Part shown: in pieces, positions 17,841-39,143 of the stretch
How the letters are laid out: the number at the start of each line of letters is the position of its first letter
Numbering within the stretch: the first letter of the stretch is position 1
From: Opitutaceae bacterium
GTDB taxonomy: Bacteria; Verrucomicrobiota; Verrucomicrobiia; Opitutales; Opitutaceae
DNA length: 64,000 nt
NCBI GenBank assembly: GCA_005792355.1
Contig: SXSC01000059.1
Location: forward strand, 1 to 64,000
Direction: 5' to 3'
The notes under the pieces: model-generated
Databases searched by the model: none
Told to the model about the DNA's origin: nothing
What the model saw: only the letters and a program-made list of their open reading frames with translations
Translations under genes and position numbers: made by a program

Positions 17841-18788
17841 TCAGCGCCGGGCTGCGGGATCAATCGTGGCGAGAAAGGCCGTGTACGTCTCCTGCAACTC
17901 CGCGAGATATCTGGCCCACGCCGGCGCCTGCGCCGCCGTCATGCAGGGCCACGGCGCCACCGTGTGCCTCGCGCAGACGTGTTCAATTTCCAGCAGGCCC
18001 TTGATGGCGGCCGCCCCGGTCGGCGCCAGGTTGAGCAAGCCGGTCAGCTTTGGGAACACCTCGGCGTCGAGGCGCGCGACCAGGTCGCGCCGGCCCGCGC
18101 GATGCCAGCGCCACAAATCGACCAACGGGGCGGCGAGCACATTCGACGGCGTGCTCACGACGCCGTCCGCGCCCTGCGCCAGCAAGCGCGGCGCGAGGGC
18201 CGAATTACCCGGCAGGTAGGAGAAATGCGCCGGGCGCCGCGGCGACGCGGCGACGGCGGCCATCTGGGCGAAATCGGCATGGGTGTCCTTGATACATACC
18301 AGGTTTGGAATCGCGAAGAGCTCCTCCAGCGCCGTCACCGGCATCTGCCAGCCGACCGCCTTCGGCAGGTTATAGGCGACGATCGGCAAGGGCGACCGCG
18401 CCGCCACCGCCGCGAAGAACGCCACGCTGAGCGCCGGGTCCCCGGGCCAGCCATAATACGGGAGGGTCAGCACCCCGTACTCGACGCCCGCTGCCGCGAG
18501 CGACTCGAGGCGACGCACGCAGCGCGCAATCGAGTTGTCGCTCGCCCCGCCCAGCAGCACGCAACGGCGCACACCCGCCCGGGCCTGCCGCGCCACCTGC
18601 AGATAGACCTCGTCGTCCAACAGCGGACCCTCGCCGACCGACCCCAGGACAAAGATCGCGTCAACGCCCGCCTGCTCCTGCCGAGCGATCAACCGCGCCA
18701 AGCCCGGTTCATCGAGCCGTCCGGCGGAGTCGATCGGGGTGACGAGTGCGGTTACGATGCCGCTGATTTTCCTGGGGGGCGCCGTCAT
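17841..18788 (-). CDS. DapA/NanA-family aldolase (KDG aldolase-like)
   Basis: The 315-residue product starts at the ATG at 18788; a TTG at 18818 would overlap the upstream gene and adds nothing recognisable. The (beta/alpha)8 class I aldolase motifs are VLGSVGEGPLL (GxxGE), the Tyr in VAYNLPK and the Schiff-base Lys in VCIKDTHAD. Family members include dihydrodipicolinate synthase, N-acetylneuraminate lyase and 2-keto-3-deoxy-sugar-acid aldolases. The neighbouring sugar-acid dehydratase-like gene makes a 2-keto-3-deoxy acid aldolase more likely than lysine synthesis. It is probably cytoplasmic. Confidence 0.83.
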   Translation of the reverse strand: MTAPPRKISGIVTALVTPIDSAGRLDEPGLARLIARQEQAGVDAIFVLGSVGEGPLLDDEVYLQVARQARAGVRRCVLLGGASDNSIARCVRRLESLAAAGVEYGVLTLPYYGWPGDPALSVAFFAAVAARSPLPIVAYNLPKAVGWQMPVTALEELFAIPNLVCIKDTHADFAQMAAVAASPRRPAHFSYLPGNSALAPRLLAQGADGVVSTPSNVLAAPLVDLWRWHRAGRRDLVARLDAEVFPKLTGLLNLAPTGAAAIKGLLEIEHVCARHTVAPWPCMTAAQAPAWARYLAELQETYTAFLATIDPAARR

Positions 18789-18810
18789 GCGAAAAGGTGC
18801 CGCGCGTCCG

Positions 18811-20526
18811 TCACTCAAACTCCAGCCCGAATAGGCGGGCCCGCTCCATCCGCACGCGAATCACCAGGCCTTCCCCGGCCCGGGTCTTGAGATCCGCCTC
18901 TCCCTTCCATTTCACGACCGCCCGGTGAGCGTCGCCCTGGATGACATCGCAATCGGCGAAGGACCGGCCCGGGATCGCCCGGTCGTCGAGGCGGGCGAGT
19001 TCAAAACGAAGCCCGCCGGCGCGTTTGGTCAGGGCGTTGACTTTGAGCGTCCGGCCCGGCGGCAGGATTCCCACGGTGGAAAACTCGCCCGCCTCGTCGG
19101 CCACGACCGCGATCAGGCGGCCCTTGGGCCACACGGCGTATCCGGAATACAACTCCATGTCGCCGCGGGGATACTTGTGCGGCAAATTGTATCCCTTGTA
19201 GGGCAGCGCAAAGTCCCCGTTGGGCAGCTCGAACAGGTGGGGAAACGAGAAAATGCAGCCGCCATCCCACTGGCCGTGGGCGGCGGTCGCCAGCACCGGC
19301 GGACCGGGCAGGCGGTTCCATCCGATGCCGTCGTGACTGGACCAGAGCCCGAGCGTGGTCGTGTCATCCCGCGTGTCCCAAATCGTCGGAAACATGAGGT
19401 GGTGATCCGGCGCGCCGGGAATCGTCGTGCGGATGCTGGTATAGAAAACCTCGGATGGTGAAGTTTCCCCGGGAACGGGCACGATCACCGGTTCTGAGAG
19501 CGAAAAGCCGCCAAAGGTGTCGCTCTCCATCCGACCGATCGCCCGCCGGCCGGAGCCATGCAGTTCCCCCAGCCAGGTGCGCGTGCGCAGATCGCCGGTC
19601 CACTCCGGCGAGCGGGGGCGGACCAGCCAGTTGCGGGTGTAGATGACGTATTTCCGGCGGACGACGTCGAAGTATCCCGTCTCCATCCCGTCGGTATGCT
19701 CAATCGTGAACGGCTCCGGCAAGACGCTCCACCGCACCCCGTCCGGCGACACCGCCCCTTGCAGGGCGTGGAAACGGGCGGGATCACCCCAGTCACCCTT
19801 GATGACCTTCGTCTCCCAACGGTCCGGATATTTCGCGATGAAAGCCCGAAACGCCTCAAACGAAAGACGCGGTCCAAAGATCCCCTTAAAGCGTCCGTCC
19901 GCGCCGGCCGCCGGGTCGATGAAAACCGTGCCACCCGGACCCGGGCTCAGCAGATTGTTGTTTCGGCTGCCCTCAAATTCCTTCTGTCCGAGATTGGGTC
20001 GTTCCCACGTCACCCCGTCGCGCGACTCGAAATAGCAGTCGCCGCCCGGCAGAGATTTGCCCCACGCACGGTACAGGTCGCCGTCCTTCAGCACCGTCTT
20101 GAAGATGACATACTCCCGTTCCCAAGGTCGCTCGCGTTTCAGAACCGGACCGCGCCGTTCGGCTGCCTGCACCTCCAGGCGAATGCCAAACGGCGACGAC
20201 GGACGGTTGATCTGGGCCGACCACTCACCGTAGACCGGCCGCTTGCTGCCTTCTTCGACCTCGTTGATGACCTCGTTCCGCTCATTCAGCCAAAACAGGC
20301 TGCCCGGCCGAATGAAGGACCAGTCCGTAAACGCGAGCCGATGTCCTTGTAACGCGTAGGGCTCGCCAAAGAGCTTCCGACCGGCCACCGCCTCGCGCAG
20401 CAGGACCTCCTTGTCATTCGCAGCATGCTTGTTTTCAGCCGATTGGGATATGACCACCGCGCAAAATAGAAAACTGGTTCCGGCAAACCAAGCGCGGGCA
20501 ATCGCACGGAATGGGGCGGTTTCCAT
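18811..20526 (-). CDS. Secreted propeller protein, glycosidase-like
   Basis: The 571-residue product has a short hydrophobic leader. Sequence blocks such as SRDGVTWERP, SPDGVRWSV, SSHDGIGWNRLPGPPV and QWDGGCIFSFPHLFELPNGDFALPYKGYN suggest a five-bladed beta-propeller of the GH32/GH43/sialidase-like type. The C-terminus (RVRMERARLFGLEFE) closely resembles that of the protein at 25169-26584 (LEFELQDAQLFGFELF), so the two are paralogues. The catalytic acids are not clear to me, so hydrolase activity is inferred. It is first in the leftward operon and starts 13 bases from the candidate operator at 20540-20562. Confidence 0.7.
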   Translation of the reverse strand: METAPFRAIARAWFAGTSFLFCAVVISQSAENKHAANDKEVLLREAVAGRKLFGEPYALQGHRLAFTDWSFIRPGSLFWLNERNEVINEVEEGSKRPVYGEWSAQINRPSSPFGIRLEVQAAERRGPVLKRERPWEREYVIFKTVLKDGDLYRAWGKSLPGGDCYFESRDGVTWERPNLGQKEFEGSRNNNLLSPGPGGTVFIDPAAGADGRFKGIFGPRLSFEAFRAFIAKYPDRWETKVIKGDWGDPARFHALQGAVSPDGVRWSVLPEPFTIEHTDGMETGYFDVVRRKYVIYTRNWLVRPRSPEWTGDLRTRTWLGELHGSGRRAIGRMESDTFGGFSLSEPVIVPVPGETSPSEVFYTSIRTTIPGAPDHHLMFPTIWDTRDDTTTLGLWSSHDGIGWNRLPGPPVLATAAHGQWDGGCIFSFPHLFELPNGDFALPYKGYNLPHKYPRGDMELYSGYAVWPKGRLIAVVADEAGEFSTVGILPPGRTLKVNALTKRAGGLRFELARLDDRAIPGRSFADCDVIQGDAHRAVVKWKGEADLKTRAGEGLVIRVRMERARLFGLEFE

Positions 20527-20539
20527 GACTTGACTGCAA

Positions 20540-20562
20540 GTGCACTTATATTATGAGTCAAC
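20540..20562. promoter_or_regulatory. Second candidate GntR operator (degenerate)
   Basis: In the 58-bp gap between divergent genes, TATGAGTCAAC lies right of a central T and GTGCACTTATA left of it. Eight of eleven arm positions are complementary. The site shares TTATATTATGAGT-type sequence with the perfect palindrome at 39121-39143, where the right arm is TATGAGTTGAC. Its position, 14-36 bases from one start codon and 23-45 from the other, suits repression of both directions. Confidence 0.6.
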
Positions 20563-20584: not shown

Positions 20585-23488
20585 ATGACTGTCCTTTGCC
20601 TCCCGGTCAGAACCGCGACGCTCCGTCTCGCCGTCCTTTTTCTGCCTGTCCCTATTGCCGCGATCTGGCCTGTCCCTCTCGCCGCAGCCGTGCCAACGAC
20701 GGTCTGGCGGCAGAGCTCGTTCGCGGAATTCGCCCAAGGCACGTTCTCCGACGCCGGAGCCAACACCTACGTCTCGGCCGCCGGGAAGATCCAGACCGTC
20801 AATCGCTGGGATTTCAACGGCGACGGCCACATCGACATCCTCTGCGCCAATTCCCATCCACTGCTCGAGCAGCTGGACATGTCCATCTATTGGGGAAACG
20901 GAAAGGACTTCAGCATCCAGCGTCATTCTTACGTCCCGGCCGACGGCCCGATGCGCGTCGCCGCGGGGGACCTCAACCGGGACGGGCGAATCGATCTCGC
21001 GGTCGCGAACTTCTCCAACGGCACGTGGACGAGCATGGATTCCGCGATCTATTGGGGCGGAACCGCGGGCGGCAAGGTGAGCCCCGCCGGCACTGCGCCG
21101 TGGTCCGCCGGACCGTTTTTTGGGAAAACCATGCTGCCATCGCAAAGCGCGCAGGGCGTGGCCATCGCGGATCTCAACGGTGACGGCTACCCGGAGGTAA
21201 TCTTCGCCTACTCCGCCGGTTTTTGGGAGTATCGCGGCAACACGAAGCCCCTGCCGTCGCGCATTTATTGGAACAAGCAGGGCGCCTTCGCCCGCGACGC
21301 CTTTACCGAGCTGCCCATCGTCGGCGCGACCGGGGTCGACGTGGCTGATGTCAACGGCGACGGCCGGCCGGATCTCGCCTTCTCCAACGGCGACGGCGCG
21401 ATGTCGCAGGTGTTCTTTGGAAGTGCGAACGGCTACGCGGCGGAACGCAGCGTGCTGCTCCCCACGCGCAAGGCCCATGCCGTTCGCTTCGGCGACGTCG
21501 ACGGCGACAAGAAAGTCGACGTCGTCTTTGCCAACGAGGAGGGCGACATCTCGTGGGCGTACCTGAACCGCGGCGGCACTTTTTCGCCGGAGGCGCGAAT
21601 CGCGTTTGCCACGCATTTTGCCAAGGACGTCGTGATTGCCGACTTCAACCGCGACGGATTCCCGGACGTTTTTTTCACCAACCACCTGCACTCGCCCACG
21701 GGGGAGGAGCGATTCGGCAACCGGCTCATGCCGTCGTATCTCTATCACGGCAGCGCAACCGGCTTCGCCAACGATCGCCGCGTGTCGATCCAGACGATCG
21801 GAGCGTGGGGCGCCAACGCGGCCGATCTGAACGGCGACGGCTGGGTCGACCTGGTCGTCTGCAATTTTCAAGAGCACTACTCCTTCGAGGTGCCCTCGTT
21901 CGTGTATTGGAACGGGCCGGACGGCTTCGATGTCACGCGGCGCACTCCGCTCTACGAACACGGCGCCCAGGGCAATGTGATCGCGGACTTCAATGGCGAC
22001 GGACACCCCGACATCCTGATCACCTCGATGATGGGCCGATCCCGCGGCGACATCGATCCCTCCTACCTCTACCTCGGCAACGCCCAGGGAAAGTACAGCA
22101 CGGCGGAGCGCATCATCCTGCCCAGCCGCGAACCCTACGAGCAGGCCATGGCCGATCTCGACGACGACGGCCAGGTCGACGTGCTGCTGTTGAACCAGGG
22201 CGAGGTCACCCGCTACGAAAACGAAGTCTGGGTCTTCTGGAACAAAAACAACCAACTGGATCCCTGGCGCATGACGGGCCTGCCAGCCTACGCCGGAGTC
22301 GGCGTCGAGGTCGCGGACCTCGATCGCGACGGCTACCTCGACGTGATCGTGGCGAACAACAAACAGTACCCGCCGGCCAAGGGCGCAACGGGATCACCCG
22401 CGCCAAACGCTCCCACCAAACCGGGATCCTTCATCTACTGGGGCGGCCCCAAGGGCTACGTGATTAGTGAACGCACGGCGCTGAATATCTTTCTCGCCCG
22501 CTCACCCTCCATCGCCGATCTCAACGGCGACGGCCACCTCGATCTCGTTTTTGCCGGCAACGGCGCCGCGATCTTCTGGGGCGACGGCACGCGCCACTAC
22601 AGCGACAGCCGGCGACAGCCGATCAAGGGAACGCTCGGTCAGCCCAACCACCAGACCGAGGTGGCCGACCTGAATCGCGACGGCCACCTCGACATCGTTT
22701 TCGCCGGCACCAAAGTGATGATCTATTGGGGCGACGCGGCGTGCCGCTACGACGACGCCAGAAAGACCGTGCTTAACTTCGACGCGAAAACGATGACGAT
22801 TGCCGACGTCAATGGCGACGGGTGGCTGGACCTGGTGTGTCCGCTGTACAAGGAAAAGGGCAGTCGTTCGCTGGAATCGTGTATTCTGCTGGGTGGCGCG
22901 GGAGGATTTGACGAAAAACGGCGCATCAGCCTTCCGACCGACGGCGGCACCGGAAGCATCGTCAGCGATTTCAACTACGACGGTTTTGCCGACGTGTTCT
23001 TTTTCTGCCACCGCCGTGATGGCAGCCCAGACGTCGTGGGCAGTTTCGGCGATCACGAAACCGTCTCCCGACTCTACTGGGGCAGCGCGACGGGTTTTGA
23101 TCGCGAGCGCTATCTCGCGATTCCCTCGATTGGGGTGCACTATGATGTCGGCATCGATCTCGGTACGATTTCCCACCGGACATTTACGTGGGACTATATT
23201 TCCTCCGCCTGGGAAGCTGGCGGCGCCAAATGGAAGCAGCTGAGCTGGGAAGCGGAAACGCCAGGCCGGACCGCCGTGCGATTCCAAGTGCGCTCCGCCC
23301 CGACCCGCGAGGGGCTGGCCAAGGCGGCGTGGCAGGGACCCGGCGGGCCGGGTTCGTTCTTCACCATCTCCGGCAGCAGCCTGACCGGAGTGCCCCAGCA
23401 GGCCTGGGTGCAATACAAACTCGTGCTCGACACCCACAACGGCGCGGCGTCGCCCGCAGTGCGCGCGGTACAGATCAATTTCCAATAA
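20585..23488 (+). CDS. Secreted FG-GAP/VCBS repeat protein 1
   Basis: The product has 967 residues from the ATG at 20585, giving a signal peptide (TATLRLAVLFLPVPIAA). It contains about fourteen calcium-binding FG-GAP/VCBS-type motifs, for example DFNGDGHIDIL, DLNRDGRIDLA, DVNGDGRPDLA and DFNYDGFADVF, each followed by a YWG- or YWN-type strand, indicating one or two seven-bladed propellers. A C-terminal beta domain ends in AWVQYKLVLDTHNG. It is paralogous along its length to the protein at 26585-29419. It may bind or present a polymer at the surface; no catalytic motif is visible. It heads the rightward operon. Confidence 0.85.
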   Translation: MTVLCLPVRTATLRLAVLFLPVPIAAIWPVPLAAAVPTTVWRQSSFAEFAQGTFSDAGANTYVSAAGKIQTVNRWDFNGDGHIDILCANSHPLLEQLDMSIYWGNGKDFSIQRHSYVPADGPMRVAAGDLNRDGRIDLAVANFSNGTWTSMDSAIYWGGTAGGKVSPAGTAPWSAGPFFGKTMLPSQSAQGVAIADLNGDGYPEVIFAYSAGFWEYRGNTKPLPSRIYWNKQGAFARDAFTELPIVGATGVDVADVNGDGRPDLAFSNGDGAMSQVFFGSANGYAAERSVLLPTRKAHAVRFGDVDGDKKVDVVFANEEGDISWAYLNRGGTFSPEARIAFATHFAKDVVIADFNRDGFPDVFFTNHLHSPTGEERFGNRLMPSYLYHGSATGFANDRRVSIQTIGAWGANAADLNGDGWVDLVVCNFQEHYSFEVPSFVYWNGPDGFDVTRRTPLYEHGAQGNVIADFNGDGHPDILITSMMGRSRGDIDPSYLYLGNAQGKYSTAERIILPSREPYEQAMADLDDDGQVDVLLLNQGEVTRYENEVWVFWNKNNQLDPWRMTGLPAYAGVGVEVADLDRDGYLDVIVANNKQYPPAKGATGSPAPNAPTKPGSFIYWGGPKGYVISERTALNIFLARSPSIADLNGDGHLDLVFAGNGAAIFWGDGTRHYSDSRRQPIKGTLGQPNHQTEVADLNRDGHLDIVFAGTKVMIYWGDAACRYDDARKTVLNFDAKTMTIADVNGDGWLDLVCPLYKEKGSRSLESCILLGGAGGFDEKRRISLPTDGGTGSIVSDFNYDGFADVFFFCHRRDGSPDVVGSFGDHETVSRLYWGSATGFDRERYLAIPSIGVHYDVGIDLGTISHRTFTWDYISSAWEAGGAKWKQLSWEAETPGRTAVRFQVRSAPTREGLAKAAWQGPGGPGSFFTISGSSLTGVPQQAWVQYKLVLDTHNGAASPAVRAVQINFQ

Positions 23489-26584: not shown

Positions 26585-29419
26585 TTACTTGAAGGAGAGG
26601 GAGACGCGTTCCAGCAACGGCGAGCTGCCGGCATTCGGAGAGATCAACCGGGCGCGATACTGGATCCACCCTCCGCGCGATCCGTGGTCGATTGGTCCGG
26701 GACGCTCCCACCAGGTGTCGCGCCCGCGCGGCCCGGTCCAGGCGGCGTCCGCGAGGGCCGCTTCCGTGGCGGCGGTGCGCACCTGAAAGTGCACGGCCGT
26801 CCCGTGCGGCGTGGCGGCGGACCAATCGATCGCGGCGAGGCGCTCGTGGGCCGGACTCTGAAAACTCATCGAGACATAGTCCTCATGCAACGCGCGGTCG
26901 TAGGCGTTGCCCGGATCGCGCAGGTTGAGGCCGGAGGGACCCCGGCCGAGCACATCCCAACGGCGTTGGGGTGAGAATCCGTCCTTGCCTCCCCAATACA
27001 ACATCGACTCGGTCACGTGGCGGTGGGGGAGGGGATCGACGGTCGAACCGGATCGGCGGTGATTGGCAAAGAAGAGATCGAGCCAGCCATCGCCATCGAA
27101 ATCCAGGGCCACCGACCCGGATGACCCATGGGTGGGGAGTTCCGTGCGCGGCCGCCCGAGAAATCCATTCTTCCCTCCCCAGTAGATGAGGGAAGGGCGG
27201 TTTCCGCTCACCTCTCCGCCGTAACTGCAGAAAACGATGTCGAGCCAGCCGTCGCGGTCGAGGTCGGCGATCGTGTTTTGATAGGGCACATACGATGGCA
27301 ACGCGACCTGATTGGCCCGGCTGAATCCGGCGGGCGATCCATAAAGGATTAACGAGGTGGTTTCGGTGCCGTCGGGCGGTCCGCGCTGGGGCAGGAGCAG
27401 ATCCAGCCACCCGTCGCGGTTGAAATCGGCCGCCGAGACATACATGAGCGCGTCGGGGCGCCCGAGGTCGATGACCGTACGTTCCAGCTTTTCGTAGCCC
27501 GCACCCGAACCCCACCAGAGGGTGACAGTTCCCTCCTTCTCCTGGGCCGCGATGTCCAGCCAGCCATCCCGGTTTAAATCGGCGAGCAGCGGCCCCCGGA
27601 TCTTCGGATTCTCACTCGGGACAATCGTCCGGCGATCGCGCCGGAAGCCCTCGGACGAGCCCCAGTAGATCGGAATTCCTCCGCGCGCCGGATTCTTCGG
27701 GTCGGTGTTGTTGCCTCCGGACACAATGTCGAGCCAGCCATCCCGGTTGAGATCGGCCAAGCGCACACCGCCGTAGGCGGATGGCGCGGTGATTTCCGTG
27801 GTGGCACTGAAGCCGGTTGGGCTTCCCCAGTAGAGCGAGATTCCCGCCGGTTCGTGGGGCACGCCGCCGATGAAGTTCTCCCGGGTCAGCGCCAAGTCGA
27901 CAAATCCGTCGTCATCGAGATCCGCATGACCGTGGCCAAAGACTTGATGCGTCGGGATCGTGAGCCGGCGGGCGGCGGAGAAGTTGCGCGTGCCGTCACC
28001 CCAATACACGTAAGTTTCCGATGGGCCGTCCCGAAAGCCGCCCTCGTTATTGAAAAAAACAACGTCCGGCTCCCCATTGTTGTCCACATCGCCAATCGCA
28101 TTGCCGACACTGCCGGCCGTGCGCAGCTGCGTGTGGTCGCCATAACGGAAGCGCCCGCGATCACTCCAGTAGACATAGGAGAACAGCTCGTTCTGATTCG
28201 TCACGTTCTGGTGGCTGAAGACCAGTTCCGGAAAGCCATCGCCGTTCAGGTCGCCCGCGCTAACTCCGCTCGCGCCCAGCGTCGGGAGGAGCGTCGCCTT
28301 GGAAGGATCAAACACCCCTTTGTCCGAGTGGAAGATGATCGAGTCCGTCCAAGTCGCCCCGCCGGTCGCAGCGTAATTTGCCACGACCAGATCGGCGTAG
28401 CCATCGCGATTGAGATCAACCGCACTCAGTCCGTACGGTTCGGAAACCGGCAGGACCGTCGCATGGTCGAAGTCGAACCGGCCGCCGCCGGCCATGATCA
28501 CGGTGACCGCGCCCGGTCGCCCAAGGGCGAGGTCGAGGGTTCCGTCGCGATTGAAGTCGCCCAAGGCGACGACGTTGCCCGGGGTGGAGTGCTGCTCGGT
28601 GGCATTCCCGGTGGCGAAGTCACCTTTGGCGGACCGGAAGACATGCAGCAGTTGTGGCGTCTGGACAACGAGATCATCGCGACCATCGCCATCGATGTCC
28701 CCCGTGGCCAGGGATCGCGCTGATTCGCCCCCGAGCGGAAGCTTCAGCCGACGGGCCTGATCGAATCCCGTCGGGGAATTCCAGTAGATGAGACTGACCT
28801 TTCGTTTCCTTTTGTCGGGACCCGAGGCATCGATCCACTCGCAGGCAATTGCGAGATCGGGCCACGCATCGCCATTGAAGTCCCCGGTCACGACCGCGCG
28901 TCCGCGGAACGCCGGCAGGGCCGTGCGGGCGGTGGCCGAGTAGCCGCCGGACCGCCCCCAGTAGATCCAGGTGTCCACCTCCTTCACATGGCTGTCGGCC
29001 GCGTTGGTGACGACCAGGTCGTTCAAGCCGTCGCGATTGAGATCAGCCACGAGACCGGCAGCCGAACCGCCTCCGGGCAGTTGAATCCGCTCGCGGCCAT
29101 TGATGTGTCCGCCGCGATTCAGGTAGATGTAGGTGTTCTCCTTTTCGGTGTGCGCGTGGCCGGAGGGTACGATCACATCCAGAAACCCATCGCCGTTCAG
29201 GTCCCAGCGATTGATGAGCTGGATCCGGCCTTGCGCCGAAACGTAGAGATTGCTGCCGGCATCGAGCATCGAACCCTGCCGAAACTGCTCGAACGTCGAC
29301 TGGGTCCAGGTGGTGGCGGCGGAGGCATGACTGGGCGCAGCCAGGCTGGCCGCGAGAGCGAACAGGGTGGCGATCGTACGAGCGGCCGGGAACCGGTGGG
29401 CGGGAGCGGGGCAATTCAT
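26585..29419 (-). CDS. Secreted FG-GAP/VCBS repeat protein 2
   Basis: The product has 944 residues from the ATG at 29419, with a signal peptide (FALAASLAAPSHASA). It shares its whole architecture with the protein at 20585-23488: both begin with a WxQSxF...GxxxDAGxNxYVSA block, carry about fourteen DxNxDGxxD motifs (DLNGDGFLDVI, DLNRDGWLDIA, DFDGDGWLDLF), and end in a WIQYRARL/WVQYKLVL-type beta domain. It follows the TonB receptor gene by five bases, so the two are surely co-transcribed. It could be a surface-exposed partner of the receptor; that is an inference from context. Confidence 0.85.
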   Translation of the reverse strand: MNCPAPAHRFPAARTIATLFALAASLAAPSHASAATTWTQSTFEQFRQGSMLDAGSNLYVSAQGRIQLINRWDLNGDGFLDVIVPSGHAHTEKENTYIYLNRGGHINGRERIQLPGGGSAAGLVADLNRDGLNDLVVTNAADSHVKEVDTWIYWGRSGGYSATARTALPAFRGRAVVTGDFNGDAWPDLAIACEWIDASGPDKRKRKVSLIYWNSPTGFDQARRLKLPLGGESARSLATGDIDGDGRDDLVVQTPQLLHVFRSAKGDFATGNATEQHSTPGNVVALGDFNRDGTLDLALGRPGAVTVIMAGGGRFDFDHATVLPVSEPYGLSAVDLNRDGYADLVVANYAATGGATWTDSIIFHSDKGVFDPSKATLLPTLGASGVSAGDLNGDGFPELVFSHQNVTNQNELFSYVYWSDRGRFRYGDHTQLRTAGSVGNAIGDVDNNGEPDVVFFNNEGGFRDGPSETYVYWGDGTRNFSAARRLTIPTHQVFGHGHADLDDDGFVDLALTRENFIGGVPHEPAGISLYWGSPTGFSATTEITAPSAYGGVRLADLNRDGWLDIVSGGNNTDPKNPARGGIPIYWGSSEGFRRDRRTIVPSENPKIRGPLLADLNRDGWLDIAAQEKEGTVTLWWGSGAGYEKLERTVIDLGRPDALMYVSAADFNRDGWLDLLLPQRGPPDGTETTSLILYGSPAGFSRANQVALPSYVPYQNTIADLDRDGWLDIVFCSYGGEVSGNRPSLIYWGGKNGFLGRPRTELPTHGSSGSVALDFDGDGWLDLFFANHRRSGSTVDPLPHRHVTESMLYWGGKDGFSPQRRWDVLGRGPSGLNLRDPGNAYDRALHEDYVSMSFQSPAHERLAAIDWSAATPHGTAVHFQVRTAATEAALADAAWTGPRGRDTWWERPGPIDHGSRGGWIQYRARLISPNAGSSPLLERVSLSFK

Positions 29420-29424
29420 CTTGC

Positions 29425-32388
29425 TCAGAATTTCGCGCGGACGCCGACCGTCCAAGCCTTGCCATCGAGATCATAGGTTTCGACGTAGTTCCGATTCACC
29501 GTATACCGCGTGTCTTCCGGCTCCCCGGTGATATTGTTGCCCTCGACGTAGATCTTCCAGCCGCTCTTGAACTCGTAGCCGAGCGAAACATCGACCGCTT
29601 CGAGCGTGTCGCGGATGTAGTCGACCCCGGGTCCGCGGCGATCGAACACGGTCACCTGCGAGCCCGTGTAGTTGTAGCCGGCCCGCGCGCTGAAACCCCG
29701 CTGCTCCCAATACACCTGGGCGTGGAAGATGTGCTTCGGTTGGTTCTCCACGCGGGAGAAATTTTGGAAACCGGTCACCGTGTAGGGGCTCGCGGCATTG
29801 GCAAAAAGGGGTGCCTTTCTCGTGCCATCAATGTAGGCGTAATTCGTGTTGAAGCCCAAGCCGCTCAGCCATCCCGGCAACCGCTTGAAACGATGCTGCC
29901 AGATGGCTTCCACGCCCCTGATCTCCTGAATGACGCCGTTTTCCGGCCGGCTCACGCGGAAAAATACGGGAGCTCCGGCGTTGGTGCGCAGGGGAAGTCC
30001 CGTGATCGGGTTGATCGCCGGCTGATTGGTCAGGCGGGCGATGGGCGCACCGATGTAGTTGTCCATCTTTTTGTAGAAATATCCGATGGAAACCAGGTTG
30101 CCACTGCCATAATAGTGCTCGAACGACAGGTCGAGGTTGTCCGACCGCTGCGCGCTCAACTGCGGATTGCGCACCGTGATGTCGATGGTGTTCCCGGTGA
30201 TCAGGGAGTTCGGATCCACGACTGCGAGCGTCAGACTGGTATCAACCGGGATCAGGCTGTCCCAATCGGGGCGCGACAGCGTCCGCGACCACCCGGCGCG
30301 CAACACGTCGTTCTGGGTGAAGCGGTAGATGCCGATGACACTGGGGACCATCGTGCCGTAGTTGGGTTGGTTCGTCACGTCACGAAAGACCATCGCGCCA
30401 CGGTTGGCTCGTGACGCCGGCCAGCGGTAGGTCGCATCCGTCAGTTCGTAACGCAGGCCGCCGACCAACCGCAATTTCCTGATGTCCAGGGTGCCCATCG
30501 CATACCCCGCCCACACGTTCTCCTCGATTTTCGCTTGAATCTCGGCCTCCTCCTGCGCCCCGGTCACCTGATTCTCACGGAAAAGCGCCGGGTTGTCGGC
30601 GTTGGTGTCCAGATAGCGGGTGAAGGCCAGATCGTTGGCCACGAAACCGAGATCCTGGAACCGATCATACGTGGAAAATCCGACGGTGCCGACGGTGGCC
30701 AACGACGCGCCCGCGGTGGCCGTGAATCGCCGGCTCTGGCCGGCGTTGGCGCGGTCTTCCATCCGGCCCTTGAAACCGGTCTTGAGACTGAACGGTTGGT
30801 CCGCCTTGAAATCAACCTTCCAGTCCGCGTTGAAGGTGAGGTTGTCATCCGTGTTGTCGCGCGCGCGCCGCAGCACGTCGGTGACCGGGTACGCCGCGAC
30901 GTTGTTGAACAGATCGGTGGTGCCGGCGCTGAGCGTGTAGGCGGGGAAGACGCGATCGCGGGTTCGGTCCCAGCTCCAGGCGACGTTGTTGAAGTTGGCC
31001 TCGTACGTGAAATCGTATTCCGTCGCCGTGAAGCGGGACTGGCCGTAGGTAATTCCATAGGTGAAGAGGCTGTTGCCGGCGGTCGTCTCCCCTTTGACGG
31101 CCAGCCGGATCTGTTCGAAATCCCGGTCCGGACGAATGCGGTCGCGTTTCCGAACCCGAATGCGGCCGACCCCGGCGGCCTTCAAGCCCGAGGCCTCCGT
31201 GAGATTGTTGGCCGCGACATCGCGAAACTGCAGCTGCACCCGCGGGCGATCATCGAATTTTTCCGAACGGTTGTACCAGCCCTTGAAACTGAGGCGGGTC
31301 GTGTGGGACAGCTTCCAATCAAACGAGGCATTGAACGCCAGTTCCTGCGACTCCTCGTACTGCCGGTTCGGATTGATCTCATTCACCAGCGCCGGGGCCC
31401 CGGTGAGGGCCTGGTTGGGGTTCACGTAGGTCACGTTGTACTGTCCGAACTCCCGGGAATAGTCCTTCCAGCTCAAATTCAGAAACACGCCGGCGGTCCG
31501 GGCCTGGTTGAAAACGTCGCCGTAGGTCACACTGCCGGCGTAGCCGGAGCCACCGTATTGGTGAGTCCGATACTCCCCGGACACCCGGGCGATTCGCTCC
31601 CGAAAATCGAAGGCATTCGCGGTTTTGAGATCAACGCGGCCGCCGATGGCATCGCCGTCAAGGTCGGGGGTCGGAGTCTTGATCACTTCGATGCCCTGAA
31701 TCACCTCGGTCGGAATGTTCCGCAGGTTGATCCCCCGCGTCTGCCCCTGGTTGCCGTATCCGGTGAGGCCGACGGCCGCCGACGGCAGGGCATCACCGTC
31801 CAAAACCACCGAATTCAGCTTTCCCTCCATGCCCCGGATTGACACCAGCCCGTCGTCGCCGCCCGCGACATTTATCCCCGCCAGGCGATTGAGGGCCATG
31901 CGCAGATTATCGTCCGGCATTTCGCCAATCGAATCCGCTGAAATCACGTTGGCAATCCGGTCGGATTGCCGCTGGCGGCTGAGCGCCACCGCCTGCTGGC
32001 TGGCATAAGTGGACACGACAAACTTTCCCATGGTGACAATCTCGCTCTTGAGTTGCACGCTCACCTGGACCGGCACGCCTTCGCGCACTTCGACCGCCTG
32101 CGTCCCTTCGGCGTAACCCAGCGAACCAACCGCCAGCGTCCTCGATCCGACGGGTACGTTGTTGAGGCGGAATCGTCCGCCATCATCCGTCGCTGTGAAC
32201 AGATTCGTTCCCACGATCTCCACTCGTGCGCCCACCACATTGCCGCCTTTCATGGCGTCGATCACCACGCCTGCAACGGTGCCGACGGTTTGCCCCAAGG
32301 CGGAAAAGAGCATTCCGGCGAAGGCCGCCGCCATGATCAGGAAGCGGTAGTGACGTGACAGCCGAGAGCAACGGTGGCGGGATTTCAT
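29425..32388 (-). CDS. TonB-dependent outer membrane receptor 1
   Basis: This 987-residue receptor begins with a hydrophobic leader, then a carboxypeptidase-regulatory-like domain (VAGVVIDAMKGGNVVGARVEI to SLGYAEGTQAVEV). The plug contains FVVSTYASQQAVALSRQRQ and MALNRLAGINVAGGDDGLVSIRGM. About twenty beta-strands and a C-terminal aromatic-ended strand form the barrel. The layout matches the Opitutaceae SusC-like group that works without an obvious SusD. It should import an oligomer or chelate with TonB energy. It is fifth in the leftward operon that begins at the Nramp-like gene. Confidence 0.9.
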   Translation of the reverse strand: MKSRHRCSRLSRHYRFLIMAAAFAGMLFSALGQTVGTVAGVVIDAMKGGNVVGARVEIVGTNLFTATDDGGRFRLNNVPVGSRTLAVGSLGYAEGTQAVEVREGVPVQVSVQLKSEIVTMGKFVVSTYASQQAVALSRQRQSDRIANVISADSIGEMPDDNLRMALNRLAGINVAGGDDGLVSIRGMEGKLNSVVLDGDALPSAAVGLTGYGNQGQTRGINLRNIPTEVIQGIEVIKTPTPDLDGDAIGGRVDLKTANAFDFRERIARVSGEYRTHQYGGSGYAGSVTYGDVFNQARTAGVFLNLSWKDYSREFGQYNVTYVNPNQALTGAPALVNEINPNRQYEESQELAFNASFDWKLSHTTRLSFKGWYNRSEKFDDRPRVQLQFRDVAANNLTEASGLKAAGVGRIRVRKRDRIRPDRDFEQIRLAVKGETTAGNSLFTYGITYGQSRFTATEYDFTYEANFNNVAWSWDRTRDRVFPAYTLSAGTTDLFNNVAAYPVTDVLRRARDNTDDNLTFNADWKVDFKADQPFSLKTGFKGRMEDRANAGQSRRFTATAGASLATVGTVGFSTYDRFQDLGFVANDLAFTRYLDTNADNPALFRENQVTGAQEEAEIQAKIEENVWAGYAMGTLDIRKLRLVGGLRYELTDATYRWPASRANRGAMVFRDVTNQPNYGTMVPSVIGIYRFTQNDVLRAGWSRTLSRPDWDSLIPVDTSLTLAVVDPNSLITGNTIDITVRNPQLSAQRSDNLDLSFEHYYGSGNLVSIGYFYKKMDNYIGAPIARLTNQPAINPITGLPLRTNAGAPVFFRVSRPENGVIQEIRGVEAIWQHRFKRLPGWLSGLGFNTNYAYIDGTRKAPLFANAASPYTVTGFQNFSRVENQPKHIFHAQVYWEQRGFSARAGYNYTGSQVTVFDRRGPGVDYIRDTLEAVDVSLGYEFKSGWKIYVEGNNITGEPEDTRYTVNRNYVETYDLDGKAWTVGVRAKF

Positions 32389-32492: not shown

Positions 32493-34010
32493 CTATTTGA
32501 GGTGGGCCCGGCGGATTAATCGCCCAACGATTTCCTTCAGCGAAGTGGGATCGTCCCGGCGGCCCTTCAGATCCGCCCAGAGCGCCGCGGTATAAGTGGC
32601 CGCGTCGGGCTCACTGGTGAATTTCCGCCCGGCGAGCGGCCCGGACTTCTGCCGGCCCGCCGCACGCAGGAAGCGCTTGCTCCATTCCAGTTCGGGCATG
32701 AGCACCGAGTAGGCGCGCACCGGATCCAGGTTCGTCGTGAGCGTGCGCCTGCCGTCCGGCGAGGCGGACTCGGTCGCGACGAAACCGGACCAGGCGGTTT
32801 GATCGGGCGAGGGCCCGGCCAGCGCGTTCAGGTAGGCGGTGATTTCCCCGCCCGTGAGCGTCGTGCGGACGGTGGCGTGGCCCCGCTGACCGCCGGTGAG
32901 AAAGAGCGCGTTGACATCGACCGGGCCCGCGGGAAGCGCGTTGCGGATGATGTGCCCCGGGTGACAGAAGGCGATGTCGGTGCCGGCCTTCACCCGCAGC
33001 GCTTCCGCGGCAAGCCAGGCCATCTCGAATCCGATCGGCGTGTCGTTGTTCAGGACAAACTCGGTCGCCTCCGGAGCGATCGCCTGCTCGCGCGCCCGGA
33101 CCCACGCGAGAAAATCGGCATCCGGCGCGATGGCGTCATGTTTCATTTCCACCAGCGCGCCCTGGTGGCTGATGATTTTCTCGGTCGCCAAATCGATTTC
33201 AATTTCCAGCCGGCCGACAAACCGGGCGTTCGACCCGGCCTGCACCAGGATTGTGCCGCGATCCGCGAGCACGATCGGCGCACGCAGCGCCTCGTGGGAG
33301 TGGCCGGTGACAAAAATATCCACCGCCGGCGCCCGGCGGGCCCACTCGGTCGCCGCCCGGCTGCCCAGGTGACACAACGCAATCACCAGATCCACTTCGC
33401 GGTCCAGCCGCTCGGCCTCGATCCCAAGCCGCTGACCGGATTCCTCCAGATTCAGCGTGCCTTCGTCCTGCGGCGTGATCATCCCGATGATGCCAATCTT
33501 CACCCCGTTGCGTTCGACGATGCGCGCCGGGGCGAAGATCGATTTTCCGGCCGGGTCCACGCGATTGAGGCAGACGAACGGCCGGCCCATCGCATTCTCG
33601 TACCGGCGCAACCAGTCGAGCCCCTGATCGTTGTCGTGATTTCCCAGCGTGACGGCATCGTAGCCGATCCGCCGCAGCGCCTCGTAGGTTGCGACGCTGT
33701 GGGTCTTGAAGGCAAACAGGTCGCCCTTCTCCGCCACATCGCCTGCATCGAGGAGGAGCACGTCGCTGCGCCCCGCTCGGACCTGGGCGACATAGCCCGC
33801 GACATACGGCAGACCGCCGACCCCTTCGTAGCCCGGCCGCACATGATCGTGCAGGTCGTTCGTGTGCAGAATGAGCAGGCGCGCCGTCGCGGCCGACGCG
33901 CCCGGCAACAGCGCGACAAAAAAAACGATGAGCGAAACGGCGGCCCCGGACTTCCGTAGGAACCGTAAGGGCGAGGGCTCCGTCGCGCTACGACTGGTTG
34001 AAACTTCCAT
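32493..34010 (-). CDS. 5'-nucleotidase/UshA-like metallophosphoesterase
   Basis: The 505-residue product starts at the ATG at 34010 (the track start is a TTG one codon earlier). A signal segment VSLIVFFVALLPGASA precedes the calcineurin-like domain, whose metal motifs are all present: HTNDLHDHV, LDAGDVAEKG, LGNHDND, LCHLGS and GHSHEAL. The C-terminal half is a 5'-nucleotidase substrate-binding domain (FCHPGHIIRNALPAG, then FLTGGQRGHATVRT). It should release phosphate from nucleotides or sugar phosphates in the periplasm. It lies between the two TonB receptor genes of the same operon, suggesting that the imported substrate carries phosphate esters or that phosphate is scavenged. Confidence 0.87.
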   Translation of the reverse strand: MEVSTSRSATEPSPLRFLRKSGAAVSLIVFFVALLPGASAATARLLILHTNDLHDHVRPGYEGVGGLPYVAGYVAQVRAGRSDVLLLDAGDVAEKGDLFAFKTHSVATYEALRRIGYDAVTLGNHDNDQGLDWLRRYENAMGRPFVCLNRVDPAGKSIFAPARIVERNGVKIGIIGMITPQDEGTLNLEESGQRLGIEAERLDREVDLVIALCHLGSRAATEWARRAPAVDIFVTGHSHEALRAPIVLADRGTILVQAGSNARFVGRLEIEIDLATEKIISHQGALVEMKHDAIAPDADFLAWVRAREQAIAPEATEFVLNNDTPIGFEMAWLAAEALRVKAGTDIAFCHPGHIIRNALPAGPVDVNALFLTGGQRGHATVRTTLTGGEITAYLNALAGPSPDQTAWSGFVATESASPDGRRTLTTNLDPVRAYSVLMPELEWSKRFLRAAGRQKSGPLAGRKFTSEPDAATYTAALWADLKGRRDDPTSLKEIVGRLIRRAHLK

Positions 34011-34067
34011 CAACCGTCCGTTTTACAGCTGGGTTTGGCACCAAGTTTTCGCGGCCGCCGCGAAAAC

Positions 34068-36914
34068 TCAGTAGGTGAAGTTGATCCCGAGCTTGTAGTC
34101 GCGATCAAGCAGGCGGCTCGAGCGCAGCAGGCTCTTCACGCCGTAGGTATACTGCTCGGGCTCCCGGGTGAGGTTGCGCACGGAGCCCGTGATGGAGTAG
34201 TGCCCGCTGATCCGGTAACGGAACAGAAAGTCGTAGCTGCCGCGGGCCAGCCGGTACTGGTCGTTGAGAAACGCTGTGCCGATCGAATAGAGCTGCTCAT
34301 CCGCATAACTCCACGCCACGCGGCCGGAAAACCGGGCCTTCTCGTAAAAGAACGTGACGTTGTAGATTTTATTCGGCTGCCGGAAGAAGGGCAGATTTTC
34401 GCCGGGCCGGGTGGGCACGATGACGTCCGACGAGATCCGAGTCAGGTTGGCGTCGATGCCAAACCCATCGAACGGGGCCGGGAGAAATTTGAAAGGCAGG
34501 TAAAGGGTCAGCTCAATGCCATTGACTCGGGCGCTCTGGGCGTTGCGCCGACCGCTGAGGCTGAGGCTCTGCAGGGAAATCCCGCTGTGGGAGACGTCAC
34601 GGAGGATTTCCGAATAGGTGTAGATCGGATTGTCGATTTCCTTGCGAAAGGCCGCCAACGCCACCGTCGCGCTGCCCTTGAGGTACCATTCGAACGACAA
34701 GTCGTAGTTTCTCGCCTGGTACGGCTTGAGGGCCGGGTTGCCGATGCTCAGCGTGCCGGTGAAAGGGAACGCCGGGTTGAGCGCCGCCGCCCCGAGGGCG
34801 TCGTAGCGGAAGTTGGCCAACGGCCGTGAGTCTTCATACGCCGGGCGGCCGATCGTCTGCGTGGCAGCCGCCCGCAGCAGGGCGCGCTCGTTGAAGCGGT
34901 AGACCGCCTGAAGGTTCGGAAAGATCTCATCGTAGCTGGTGGTGCCCGAGGTCGGAAACCGGCCGAGCAGCGTGGTGCCGGCGGAACGGGCTTCGACCGC
35001 GCGAATGGTGGCGTCCGTCTTTTCCCACCGCAATCCGGCCAGCAGCGTCAGCTTGTTGAGCTTGAGGCTGCCCATCGCGTACGCCGCGTAGATGTATTCG
35101 TCGATGTCGTAGTCGTCCTCGATCGAGTTTTGCGCCTCCTCCAGCGGGATGGGCCGGACCAGGCTGCGGTTCGCGGCGATGAACCGGTCAATGCCCTCCC
35201 AGTTGAGCAGGAAGCCGCTGTTGAAACGACCGTCATACACCGGCACCGCCGGGCGGACCATGCTTGAATCCAACCGCCAGCTCGTGACCGGCTCCACGCG
35301 CCGCGACTCCAAATCGGTGAGCCGCGCGCGCTGCAGGTACTTGACGCCGGTCTTGAGCCAGCCCGGCCGGCCCAGCAGGTTGGTGGTGTCCCAGCGCACG
35401 TCGAGCTTGGCCGTTGATGTCTTCTCATCGACGACGCCCCAGTCGTCACGCGTGCGGCGCAGGGGATAGGTGGACGGCAGGTCGATGGCGGGATCCACAT
35501 CCCAGCGCTTGAAGTCGAAGGCCCCGAAGTCGAACTGCACGGGTCCCGTGTTGCCGGTGGCGTTGCGAAACTCGCGGGACTTGTCGTACACGCGGTTCTC
35601 CTTGGCCGCGGAATGCGTCAGCAGCGGTTCGATGGTGAACGCGCCCAAGACCTTCTGCAAACCGGCCGAAATAGTGAACAGATTCTGATCGTATTGTCGG
35701 CGCAGTTCGCGTCGCTCCGTCCGCGCCCCGGCGCCGGCAAAGGTGCCCGCGGTCGGAGAGGTGAACGTCACCCGGGCCGCCGAGTTGTCGACACTGATGT
35801 TGGTTTCGAACCGGTTCTCGTACTGGGACGCTGCCGAAAAATTGGGGCGGATGAAGAGCCGCAGGCTGTTGTCCGGCCGGTACTCGAGGTTGAGGTTGGC
35901 CCCGTGGCGCTCGTTGCTGCCGTGCTCCGGCTTCACCTGAAAATCGTTCGGCAGATAGCGGTTCTCGTTGTTGATCGCGCGCAGATTCCAACTCGCCTGC
36001 ACCCAGTTGTTTTCGAAAAACCGCTTGTCATAACTCGCGCCGGCCAGAAGGCCCCAGCGATTCCCCGGCCCGAACAGCGTGGAATAGCTCACCTGCGCAT
36101 CGAGGTTGGTCTTTTCGCCGGTCTCATTGTACAGCCCGTTGATCGATCCGGAAATGAAGCGTCCCTTGCGATCGAACGGGCTGGCGGATCTGATCTTGAG
36201 CGTGCCACCGAGCGAGTTCGCATCGAGGTCGGGCGTGGCGCTCTTGACGACCTCGATCTGCGCGATCTGCGAGGCGTTGAGCGTATCCAAGGGAGTGGCA
36301 CGGCCGAGGCGCGTGCCGCCCGGAGACGCCATCGTGGCATCGTCGAGCAGCACCTGGTTGAGATTCGGCTCGACCCCGCGGATGCTCACGTAGCGCCCCT
36401 CCCCCTGGTCGAGGGACAGATTCACGCCCGGCAGGCGCGAGACGGCCTCGGCCACGTTGCGGTCGGGCAGGTTGCCGATCGCGTCCGAGGAGATGATGTC
36501 CGAGATGTTGGTCTGGGTGCGTTTTTGTTGCAGCGCCCGGGCGCGACCTTCGCGAAATCCTTCGACGACAAACTGCTCCAGTTTCACCACGTCGGCACCC
36601 AGCTTGATGTCAACCGCCGCCGCCCCGGTGGCCGGTACGCTCACCGCCTGCGTCTTGGTCTCATAGCCGACGAAGTCCACCTGCACGGTGTAATTGCCGG
36701 CGGGCACGTCGGAAAAACGGAAGCGGCCACCGCCATCGGTCGACCCACTTCGGCCCAGTTCCACGAGCGTGACGGTGGCGCCCGGGAGGAATCCCTGGGT
36801 GGCCGACTGCGAGACGACGCCGGCGATCTCACCGGCCCACGCGGGCAACGAAGCCAGGGCGAGACCGAATGCGACCAAGAGGGCGCGGGTAATGGAGTTG
36901 GACTGAGTCTTCAT
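34068..36914 (-). CDS. TonB-dependent outer membrane receptor 2
   Basis: This 948-residue receptor has a clear signal peptide (LLVAFGLALASLPAWA), a carboxypeptidase-like domain (GFLPGATVTLVELGRSGSTD through YTVQVDFVGYETKT), a plug with NLPDRNVAEAVSRLPGVNLS and GRYVSIRGVEPNLNQVLLD, and a full barrel ending in KLGINFTY. It is only distantly like the receptor at 29425-32388, so the two may take different forms of a substrate. It follows the racemase-family gene by 90 bp in the leftward operon. Confidence 0.9.
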   Translation of the reverse strand: MKTQSNSITRALLVAFGLALASLPAWAGEIAGVVSQSATQGFLPGATVTLVELGRSGSTDGGGRFRFSDVPAGNYTVQVDFVGYETKTQAVSVPATGAAAVDIKLGADVVKLEQFVVEGFREGRARALQQKRTQTNISDIISSDAIGNLPDRNVAEAVSRLPGVNLSLDQGEGRYVSIRGVEPNLNQVLLDDATMASPGGTRLGRATPLDTLNASQIAQIEVVKSATPDLDANSLGGTLKIRSASPFDRKGRFISGSINGLYNETGEKTNLDAQVSYSTLFGPGNRWGLLAGASYDKRFFENNWVQASWNLRAINNENRYLPNDFQVKPEHGSNERHGANLNLEYRPDNSLRLFIRPNFSAASQYENRFETNISVDNSAARVTFTSPTAGTFAGAGARTERRELRRQYDQNLFTISAGLQKVLGAFTIEPLLTHSAAKENRVYDKSREFRNATGNTGPVQFDFGAFDFKRWDVDPAIDLPSTYPLRRTRDDWGVVDEKTSTAKLDVRWDTTNLLGRPGWLKTGVKYLQRARLTDLESRRVEPVTSWRLDSSMVRPAVPVYDGRFNSGFLLNWEGIDRFIAANRSLVRPIPLEEAQNSIEDDYDIDEYIYAAYAMGSLKLNKLTLLAGLRWEKTDATIRAVEARSAGTTLLGRFPTSGTTSYDEIFPNLQAVYRFNERALLRAAATQTIGRPAYEDSRPLANFRYDALGAAALNPAFPFTGTLSIGNPALKPYQARNYDLSFEWYLKGSATVALAAFRKEIDNPIYTYSEILRDVSHSGISLQSLSLSGRRNAQSARVNGIELTLYLPFKFLPAPFDGFGIDANLTRISSDVIVPTRPGENLPFFRQPNKIYNVTFFYEKARFSGRVAWSYADEQLYSIGTAFLNDQYRLARGSYDFLFRYRISGHYSITGSVRNLTREPEQYTYGVKSLLRSSRLLDRDYKLGINFTY

Positions 36915-37004: not shown

Positions 37005-37718
37005 TCAAACCGCTTTGCGGCGGGAGCGGCCCGGTTGGGCCGTCCGGCCCTTGAGGCGCGCCACCACGCTGGCAACGCCAAGTCGGGGACTGGTCAGCAC
37101 CGGCACCGGCGTCGGACCGAGCTCGGGCAGAATGGCCACCATGCTGCCCTGCGCACAAACCACGACATCAACCTTCTGCGCCAGCGCACGAATCGCCTCC
37201 AGCACCATGGCGTTGTGCCGCGCCCGATCGCCGCCCACGAGCTTTTCGAAGGCGCCCTTGACCAGACCGCGCGTGACGACGACGCGCTTTCGCATCCGCT
37301 TCGCCGTGGCCTCGATCAGCCGGCAGGTCGGACCGAGCGTGGTCTCGAGCGTCGCCACCACGCCGATCCGGGAGCCAATCCGGCACGCCTCCTCGGCCAT
37401 CGCGGTGTCCACCTTCACCACCGGCACCCGCACGGCACGCGCCGCGGCGTCCGCGGCCTCGCCGACCGACGAGCATTGGTTGAAAATCAACGACGCCCCG
37501 GCCAACTCCGCCGCCTGGTAGTAACCGCGCATGCGCCGGCGGACCGCCGGGGTCACACCCCCGTTGGCGAGGACCTCTTTGAGCAGGCTGTCATCCACGA
37601 TGTGGCGCAGTTCGAGGTCCGGACCGAGTTCCTGAAACAACTCGGTCAGGTGCTGGACCGAGACAAAGCTGGTGTGGACCAGAAATACCACGGGGACGGA
37701 TTTTTTTGAAGAAGGCAT
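37005..37718 (-). CDS. Asp/Glu racemase superfamily enzyme
   Basis: The 237-residue product carries the two cysteines that act as acid/base in this family: Cys82 in FNQCSSVGEA and Cys188 in VVVCAQGSM. VVATLETTLGPT and a late PVPVLTSPRLGV are also typical. The family includes aspartate, glutamate and hydantoin racemases, arylmalonate decarboxylase and maleate isomerase, so the reaction is not fixed by sequence. It starts 16 bases after the Nramp-like transporter gene, suggesting that it acts on the transported compound. The C-terminus is basic (GRSRRKAV), a minor oddity. Confidence 0.75.
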   Translation of the reverse strand: MPSSKKSVPVVFLVHTSFVSVQHLTELFQELGPDLELRHIVDDSLLKEVLANGGVTPAVRRRMRGYYQAAELAGASLIFNQCSSVGEAADAAARAVRVPVVKVDTAMAEEACRIGSRIGVVATLETTLGPTCRLIEATAKRMRKRVVVTRGLVKGAFEKLVGGDRARHNAMVLEAIRALAQKVDVVVCAQGSMVAILPELGPTPVPVLTSPRLGVASVVARLKGRTAQPGRSRRKAV

Positions 37719-37734: not shown

Positions 37735-39030
37735 TCAGATGATCTTCAGCTGCGAAAGGATGGATTTCACCGCCTCAAATCCGCCGTAGAGGGCCAGAAC
37801 GAAGAGGAAGGCCATGACCGCGTTGTCCCACCAACGGTTGCAATACTCCGCCCCGATAAATGAGGCGCGGGCGGTGATGCACCAGAGCCCTCCGGCCAGA
37901 GCCGGGATCAAGACGACCGAGAAGGAATTTGCCAAAATGGTCAGGGAAACGAACTCCGCCTGGCCCATCCACACCAGCGGAGAAATCAGGATCCACAGCA
38001 CCACGATCCGGTAGATGCGGTGGTCGCGAAAATCGCCCGGCAGCGGCACGTCGTTTCCCGCCCGCCAGCGCAACCAGGCGTGGGTCGCCAGGCAGCCCAG
38101 CCCCATGCCGGCGCCCACGATCGAGGTGAAGATGGCGGCGAACACGCCGAGGAGAAACAGGAGCCGTCCCGCCTGGCCGAGGACACCGCCCAGGAGTGAC
38201 GCCAGGTCGTCCACCGAGCTGATGGTCCCCCCTTTGCCGTGCACGAGCTCGGCCCCGAGGGTCCAGACCGCGAGGTTGAAGACGATCATCACGACCACCG
38301 CGACCAGGAAGTCGTAATTTTGGACACGCCGATACTGGGGCCCGCGCCAGCCCTTTTGATCCAGGAAGTAGGGATAGACGAGGTTTACCAGCGAACCGCC
38401 CACCGCTCCCACCATCCCGATCGCCACGAGCAACGCGCTGAACGGACCGTGTTGCCGCGGGATTTCAAAGGTAAAAACCCCCTTGACGACCCCCATCGGA
38501 TCGACGCCGACCCAGAGCGCGCACCCCAGCAGCGAGACCGCCAGCACTCCCACGAAGACCTTGAACAAATTCTCGAAGCGCGCGTAGGACGGCCGGAAAA
38601 CCAAAGAAAGACTGATCGCCACCCAGATGATCTCCCAGAGCCATTTGGAGCCTCCCACTCCGGCGAGATCACGCGTGATTTCCGCAATTCCCGCCAGCAT
38701 GTAGCAATTGCTCAGGTGTCCCCACAGCAACACCGCGACAAAGAGAAACGGCGCGTACAGCCAGTGCAGCCGCGCGAGACCGTCTAGCACCCCCTCGCCC
38801 CTCGGGTTGCACAGCTGATAACGGGCGATGAGTGAAACAAACAAATACCGCACCAGCAACGCGACCACCATCGCCCACATGAGCGCGTAACCATAGTTTC
38901 CTCCCGCGACCCCGGCGGCGACGATATCGCCCGCACCCAGCCAGGTGAGCACCGCGACAAAGCCGGGGCCAAAGGAGCGAAGATACTCCCAAAATCCCTT
39001 GGGGACGGGGGCGAGTGCAGGGCGATCCAT
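37735..39030 (-). CDS. Nramp-fold transporter lacking metal motifs
   Basis: The product has 431 residues from the ATG at 39030, chosen because the 25 preceding residues are basic and unlike a membrane protein. About eleven hydrophobic spans and the start SFGPGFVAVLTWLGAGDIV place it in the Nramp/SLC11 superfamily. Where Nramp metal transporters have DPGN in TM1, this protein has GAGD; where TM6 has MPHN, it has GGSL in VGAVGGSLVNLVYPY. The metal-coordinating Asp, Asn and Met are thus missing. It may transport an organic solute or work differently. It is first in the leftward operon, 90 bp from the perfect palindrome. Confidence 0.78.
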   Translation of the reverse strand: MDRPALAPVPKGFWEYLRSFGPGFVAVLTWLGAGDIVAAGVAGGNYGYALMWAMVVALLVRYLFVSLIARYQLCNPRGEGVLDGLARLHWLYAPFLFVAVLLWGHLSNCYMLAGIAEITRDLAGVGGSKWLWEIIWVAISLSLVFRPSYARFENLFKVFVGVLAVSLLGCALWVGVDPMGVVKGVFTFEIPRQHGPFSALLVAIGMVGAVGGSLVNLVYPYFLDQKGWRGPQYRRVQNYDFLVAVVVMIVFNLAVWTLGAELVHGKGGTISSVDDLASLLGGVLGQAGRLLFLLGVFAAIFTSIVGAGMGLGCLATHAWLRWRAGNDVPLPGDFRDHRIYRIVVLWILISPLVWMGQAEFVSLTILANSFSVVLIPALAGGLWCITARASFIGAEYCNRWWDNAVMAFLFVLALYGGFEAVKSILSQLKII

Positions 39031-39120: not shown

Positions 39121-39143
39121 GTCAACTCATATTATGAGTTGAC
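39121..39143. promoter_or_regulatory. Perfect 23-bp palindrome, likely GntR operator
   Basis: GTCAACTCATA, a central T, and TATGAGTTGAC form a perfect 11+1+11 inverted repeat between the divergent transporter (start 39030) and the FadR-like regulator (start 39315). Palindromes of this size next to a GntR gene are usually its binding site. A degenerate copy lies at 20540-20562. Confidence 0.75.

Follow-up and report, generated by a model that had tools for sequence, protein, structure and literature searches.

A palindrome beside a GntR/FadR-subfamily regulator gene in an Opitutaceae bacterium: a candidate operator with a second, weaker site in the same gene cluster

A stretch of 64,000 nucleotides from an Opitutaceae bacterium, referred to here as the window, contains a perfect palindrome (site 1) in the spacer that separates a GntR/FadR-subfamily regulator gene from a divergently oriented gene for an Nramp-related transporter (Table 1). 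This palindrome is very probably the operator of the adjacent regulator, which would also use a second, weaker site (site 2), repress two divergons and be released by a carboxylate. An initial annotation of this DNA had already proposed site 1 as a candidate operator, and it is read as such because it travels with the regulator, is conserved within a diverged spacer, lies at the position expected in a divergon and has a second copy in both genomes. Computationally, this reading has good support, and we infer the binding itself, the direction of the regulatory effect, the ligand and how far the operons extend.

Table 1. Features of the cluster, with positions counted in the window.
Feature	Position	Strand	Remarks
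Site 1, proposed operator O1	39121..39143	.	Exact; no other copy in the genome; shares an identical block of 22 nt with G002 within a diverged spacer
Site 2, proposed operator O2	20544..20558	.	58-bp spacer between divergent genes; 1 mismatch to O1 core
GntR/FadR-subfamily regulator, winged helix-turn-helix and FCD domain, 246 aa	39315..40055	+	
Nramp-related membrane transporter, divergent from regulator	37735..39030	-	74% identical in G002
Asp/Glu/hydantoin racemase-family enzyme	37005..37718	-	In G087 and G148, relatives directly adjoin the regulator homologue
TonB-dependent receptor	34068..36914	-	
UshA/5'-nucleotidase-like metallophosphoesterase	32493..34013	-	
Second TonB-dependent receptor	29425..32388	-	
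FG-GAP/VCBS repeat secreted protein	26585..29455	-	
Gene without assigned family, adjoins site 2	18811..20526	-	63% identical in G002
DHDPS-family aldolase/lyase, next in site-2 leftward unit	17841..18818	-	Overlaps the preceding gene by 8 bp
FG-GAP/VCBS repeat secreted protein, divergent from site 2	20585..23488	+	66% identical in G002

Site 1 (GTCAACTCATATTATGAGTTGAC) is an exact 11+1+11 inverted repeat of 23 bp, GTCAACTCATA-T-TATGAGTTGAC, with arms that are 100% complementary, as the initial annotation had described; it had also been correctly placed at the divergent promoter of a GntR/FadR gene, in a spacer of 284 bp between the ATG of the Nramp-like gene (39030, minus strand) and that of the GntR/FCD gene (39315, plus strand). 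No sigma-70-like promoter was recognisable beside site 1; therefore, promoter occlusion cannot be read from the sequence and activation is possible. A perfect palindrome with 11-bp arms and a centre of 0–3 nt appeared in 1 of 4000 shuffles of the spacer, and approx. 0.18 are expected in a shuffled 64-kb window, so that the chance occurrence, which had been called very low, is so for the spacer and only moderately low for the window as a whole. Judged by the palindrome alone, a chance origin is unlikely, yet possible, and the real strength of the case for site 1 lies in the comparative evidence. Although the figure of 0.18 leaves some room for it, a chance palindrome or a mobile repeat is scarcely credible and already contradicted, since the sequence is found at the same place in a related genome (G002, see below) in spite of diverged flanks, and it is single copy genome-wide, with no second place within three mismatches of the 23-mer in the 8.4-Mb genome. 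The papers listed by a literature search for the motif were all unrelated.

It could also be considered that the palindrome acts as RNA, as a leader or an upstream antisense hairpin (attenuator, terminator or stability element), given that it would form a hairpin of 10–12 bp on either strand with a z of about -4.9. Nevertheless, any perfect palindrome folds, and this one is located upstream of both genes, shows neither a T tract nor a terminator call, and has no match in Rfam; moreover, its second copy, also in a divergent spacer, is imperfect. A role as RNA is thus very improbable.

The comparative evidence for an operator comes from G002, a Verrucomicrobiia metagenome-assembled genome (WYBX01000045.1) that was the sole record returned by a motif scan of named genomes. 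Among 189 relatives scanned, only the genome of the window (G000) and G002 combine a near-identical palindrome with a close regulator orthologue; in G002, the palindrome, two mismatches off and the only match among these relatives, is upstream of an orthologous regulator of 72% identity, and the next homologues have an identity of approx. 40%. The Nramp-like gene and the adjoining racemase-family gene (70% identical) are also kept in G002. A block of 22 nt, TGTCAACTCATATTATGAGTTG, is identical in the window and in G002, while the remainder of the aligned spacers is poorly alignable. The 23-mer is found at -194 from the start of the regulator in the window, and the core at -192 from the aligned start in both genomes. 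Because the outermost bases of the palindrome lack symmetrical conservation between the window and G002, its conserved part was defined as the inner 9+1+9, CAACTCATATTATGAGTTG (39123-39141), within which the comparison of homologues singles out ACTCAT-N3-ATGAGT (ACTCAT-ATT-ATGAGT, 39125-39139). Another reading of the arms, in which GTCAAC/GTTGAC would be two GT-N2-AC sites, was rejected, since G002 has GTTGCA as its right arm. Near-exact scans for the motif in 27 genomes of the genus, 189 relatives and 388 genomes of the phylum revealed no site beyond the two genomes, and with a close orthologue in only one genome besides that of the window, the conservation of the palindrome rests on these two, which counts against the operator reading.

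A scan of the window for weaker copies detected site 2 (ACTTATATTATGAGT), an imperfect copy, missed by the initial annotation, in the promoter region of a further divergent gene pair of the cluster. The genome-wide motif scan that had been suggested as a check was carried out over the 8.4-Mb genome and revealed only sites 1 and 2 within one mismatch of ACTCATATTATGAGT; they are 18.6 kb apart, and both are in divergent spacers of one cluster. The presence of two such sites, with none elsewhere at that stringency, is consistent with a regulator that acts locally on two divergons. G002, which also has the exact core, carries its second site, ACTCGTCTTATGAGT, between the orthologues of the two genes that flank site 2. 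This counterpart differs from site 2 by three bases, and this difference, together with the imperfection of site 2, counts against the operator reading. Several of the weaker matches inspected in the window's own genome overlap long ORFs. One upstream of HU/IHF-like and UbiE-like methyltransferase genes (C301) and another near a KDPG-aldolase-like/TonB-receptor pair (C327) are not located near the regulator, and were set aside as chance or as sites of other FCD proteins. A canonical FadR-type site, ACTGGTGGTACCAGT (L069, G000:C327:2851-2865), precedes a TonB receptor gene that adjoins a KDPG-aldolase-like gene; it is perhaps the target of another FCD regulator.

The sites of the FadR subfamily are palindromes with a TKGT-N3-ACMA core, and in the divergons of this subfamily the regression slopes for the spacer are 0.62 and 0.38, with a single site slightly nearer the structural operon (PMC4494728). 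Site 1 splits its spacer 0.64:0.36, in agreement with this position; on the other hand, its core, TCAT-ATT-ATGA, keeps the spacing and the outer T/A, but not the GT/AC pair. The absence of the canonical GT-N3-AC pair from a site whose putative regulator keeps the contact arginines counts against the operator reading. It also gives some weight to the possibility that a different transcription factor, global or distant, uses the palindrome together with the FCD protein or instead of it, all the more as many families bind palindromes (for the pair, PMC4494728). This possibility is improbable: the genome has just two strong sites, and their location within the cluster speaks for a regulator that acts locally; site 1 is adjoined by the gene of the FCD regulator, and the DNA between both sites contains no further gene recognised as that of a transcription factor; the motif and the FCD regulator co-occur; and hybrid sites such as ACTGGTATTATGAGT are present in the loci of homologous regulators.

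The adjacent regulator, the favoured candidate, has an N-terminal GntR winged helix-turn-helix (PF00392, E 2e-21, residues 13-73) and an all-helical C-terminal domain of approx. 150 aa that is a better match to FCD (PF07729, E 1.5e-21) than to FadR_C (PF07840, E 1.5e-7). Its predicted model, with helices in the C-terminal domain, matches 1hw1 (the best), 6on4 and 2di3, which are FadR, NanR and LldR-like structures; with overall TM-scores of only about 0.5 and high rmsd, these matches support the fold family and no more. The best NCBIfam matches, NanR, GlcC, PdhR and LldR, are all far under the cut-off, and the protein is not orthologous to any named FCD regulator. In FadR, R35, R45 and R49 are the arginines that contact DNA (PMC4494728), and they are kept here as R37, R47 and R51, according to their position in the motif SER-x9-SR-x3-R. 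Where FadR has His65, the window and G002 likewise have His, and the three homologues that have TKGT-type sites directly upstream have Gln; this relation between residue and site type is a correlation, seen in five proteins, rather than a test. Residue 197, at a position that we take to be that of a metal-binding histidine in FCD proteins such as LldR, is Asn in the window and in G002 and His in the closest homologues (L035, L036 and L037).

Comparison with known systems places this regulator close to E. coli FadR in architecture, with the same winged helix-turn-helix and C-terminal helical domain, and sets it apart by its cluster, which is of sugar-acid type rather than one of fatty acid genes. 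The sites of E. coli FadR have the geometry CTGGT-N3-ACCAG, as in the fadBA probe CATCTGGTACGACCAGATC of a primer table, and the probe for fadD site 2, AAGCTGGTATGATGAGTTAA, is bound by E. coli FadR and contains CTGGTATGATGAGTT (PMC4259882). The latter shares an ATGAGTT half with the window site; therefore, an ATGAGT half is compatible with the FadR fold. CA/TG replaces GG/CC in both halves of the window site. BioR, also of the FadR subfamily, has the non-canonical operator TTATMKATAA (PMC4494728), likewise a palindrome without the GT/AC pair; its sequence and length differ, and the window site is linked to the canonical form by hybrid sites in relatives. NanR, GlcC, PdhR and LldR, FCD-type carboxylate regulators, control uptake and breakdown genes near their own gene, and their target genes differ from those found here. 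NanR uses GGTATA direct repeats (PMC8012715).

Most of the homologues with 35-41% identity have sites of FadR geometry nearby, e.g., ACTGGT-N3-ACCAGT, and the window site maintains this geometry with CA/TG instead of GG/CC. Just upstream of the regulator homologue are ACTTGTATGACAAGT (G102) and ACTGGTCATACAAGT (G087 and G148), whereas ACTGGTCAGACCAGT (G150 and G180) is upstream of an oxidoreductase-regulator unit; in G081 and G037, the hybrid site ACTGGTATTATGAGT is several kb away from the regulator homologue, and ACTGGTATGATCAGT or ACTGGTAAGATCAGT is found just downstream of a second one. Across 14 stretches that surround the regulator or one of its homologues, the pattern ACTNRTNNNAYNAGT has 14 matches, versus 0.43 in shuffles (maximum 3), counting sites as spacer-located after discounting over-extended mechanical ORF starts. 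Since most of these sites were already familiar when the pattern was drawn up, and only those of L041 and L042 (G150 and G180) were new, the enrichment is mostly descriptive and largely no independent test. The homologue loci L040 and L045 were scanned and have no such site, and over the whole genome of the window the pattern does not exceed background (8 sites, versus 16 in the control). The G148 genome has ten such sites in all, three of them (L037, G148:C15; 189440, 195321 and 200340) within 11 kb of one regulator homologue. Of most interest is that the type of site has apparently changed within the family; we tentatively suggest, with rather less than even confidence, that the regulator and its G002 orthologue shifted from the CTGGT-N3-ACCAG of the homologues to ACTCAT-N3-ATGAGT while the contact arginines were kept, so that clades and hybrid sites could be a natural record of a change in FadR-type specificity.

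Six co-directional ORFs run leftward from 39030 to 26585, in line with the six-gene operon of the initial annotation; the operon, however, is something we only infer, and in G002, the one genome with an orthologous locus, only the Nramp-like, racemase and TonB receptor genes keep their order and strand. Directly after the stop codon of this TonB receptor, between genes 3 and 4, there is a strong hairpin (34040-34074, -22 kcal/mol) with no T tract, which may end or stabilise a first transcript of three genes. This GC-rich hairpin holds the one other perfect palindrome with 11-bp arms in the window (34045-34067). The operator as originally described is better seen as a non-canonical 9+1+9 core that probably serves two divergons rather than one six-gene operon. 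In the Nramp-related protein, GAGD replaces the DPGN of Nramp proteins that transport metals, and the matching helix lacks an MPH motif; its cargo may thus not be a divalent metal. Farther leftward of site 2 there is a galactonate-dehydratase-like enzyme (15011-16246), and the neighbourhoods of relatives add a DUF1537-type (threonate-kinase-like) protein, a GntP permease, FAA-hydrolase-like domains and a UxuA-like protein; window and relatives together point to the uptake and breakdown of a sugar acid. Genes for a TRAP transporter (fused DctQM and DctP, 42117-45577) are located beyond the regulator, with no operator-like site found around them.

From its genes and sites, this system would most likely be a local repressor of two divergons for sugar-acid uptake and breakdown, released by a metabolite. 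A dimer of the regulator would sit on the ACTCAT-ATT-ATGAGT core and, more weakly, on site 2; at the first it would repress its own gene and the Nramp-racemase-TonB unit, and at the second the aldolase unit together with the divergent FG-GAP gene. Release of the DNA would follow when the FCD domain binds a small carboxylate, which is probably a sugar acid or an intermediate formed as the pathway degrades it. This is a new example of a known, ordinary kind of gene switch. For an uncultured lineage of Verrucomicrobiota, it provides a concrete candidate regulon of two sites in what is apparently a cluster for sugar-acid uptake, and the related sites, canonical, hybrid and shifted, form a series in which FadR-type DNA specificity may be followed.
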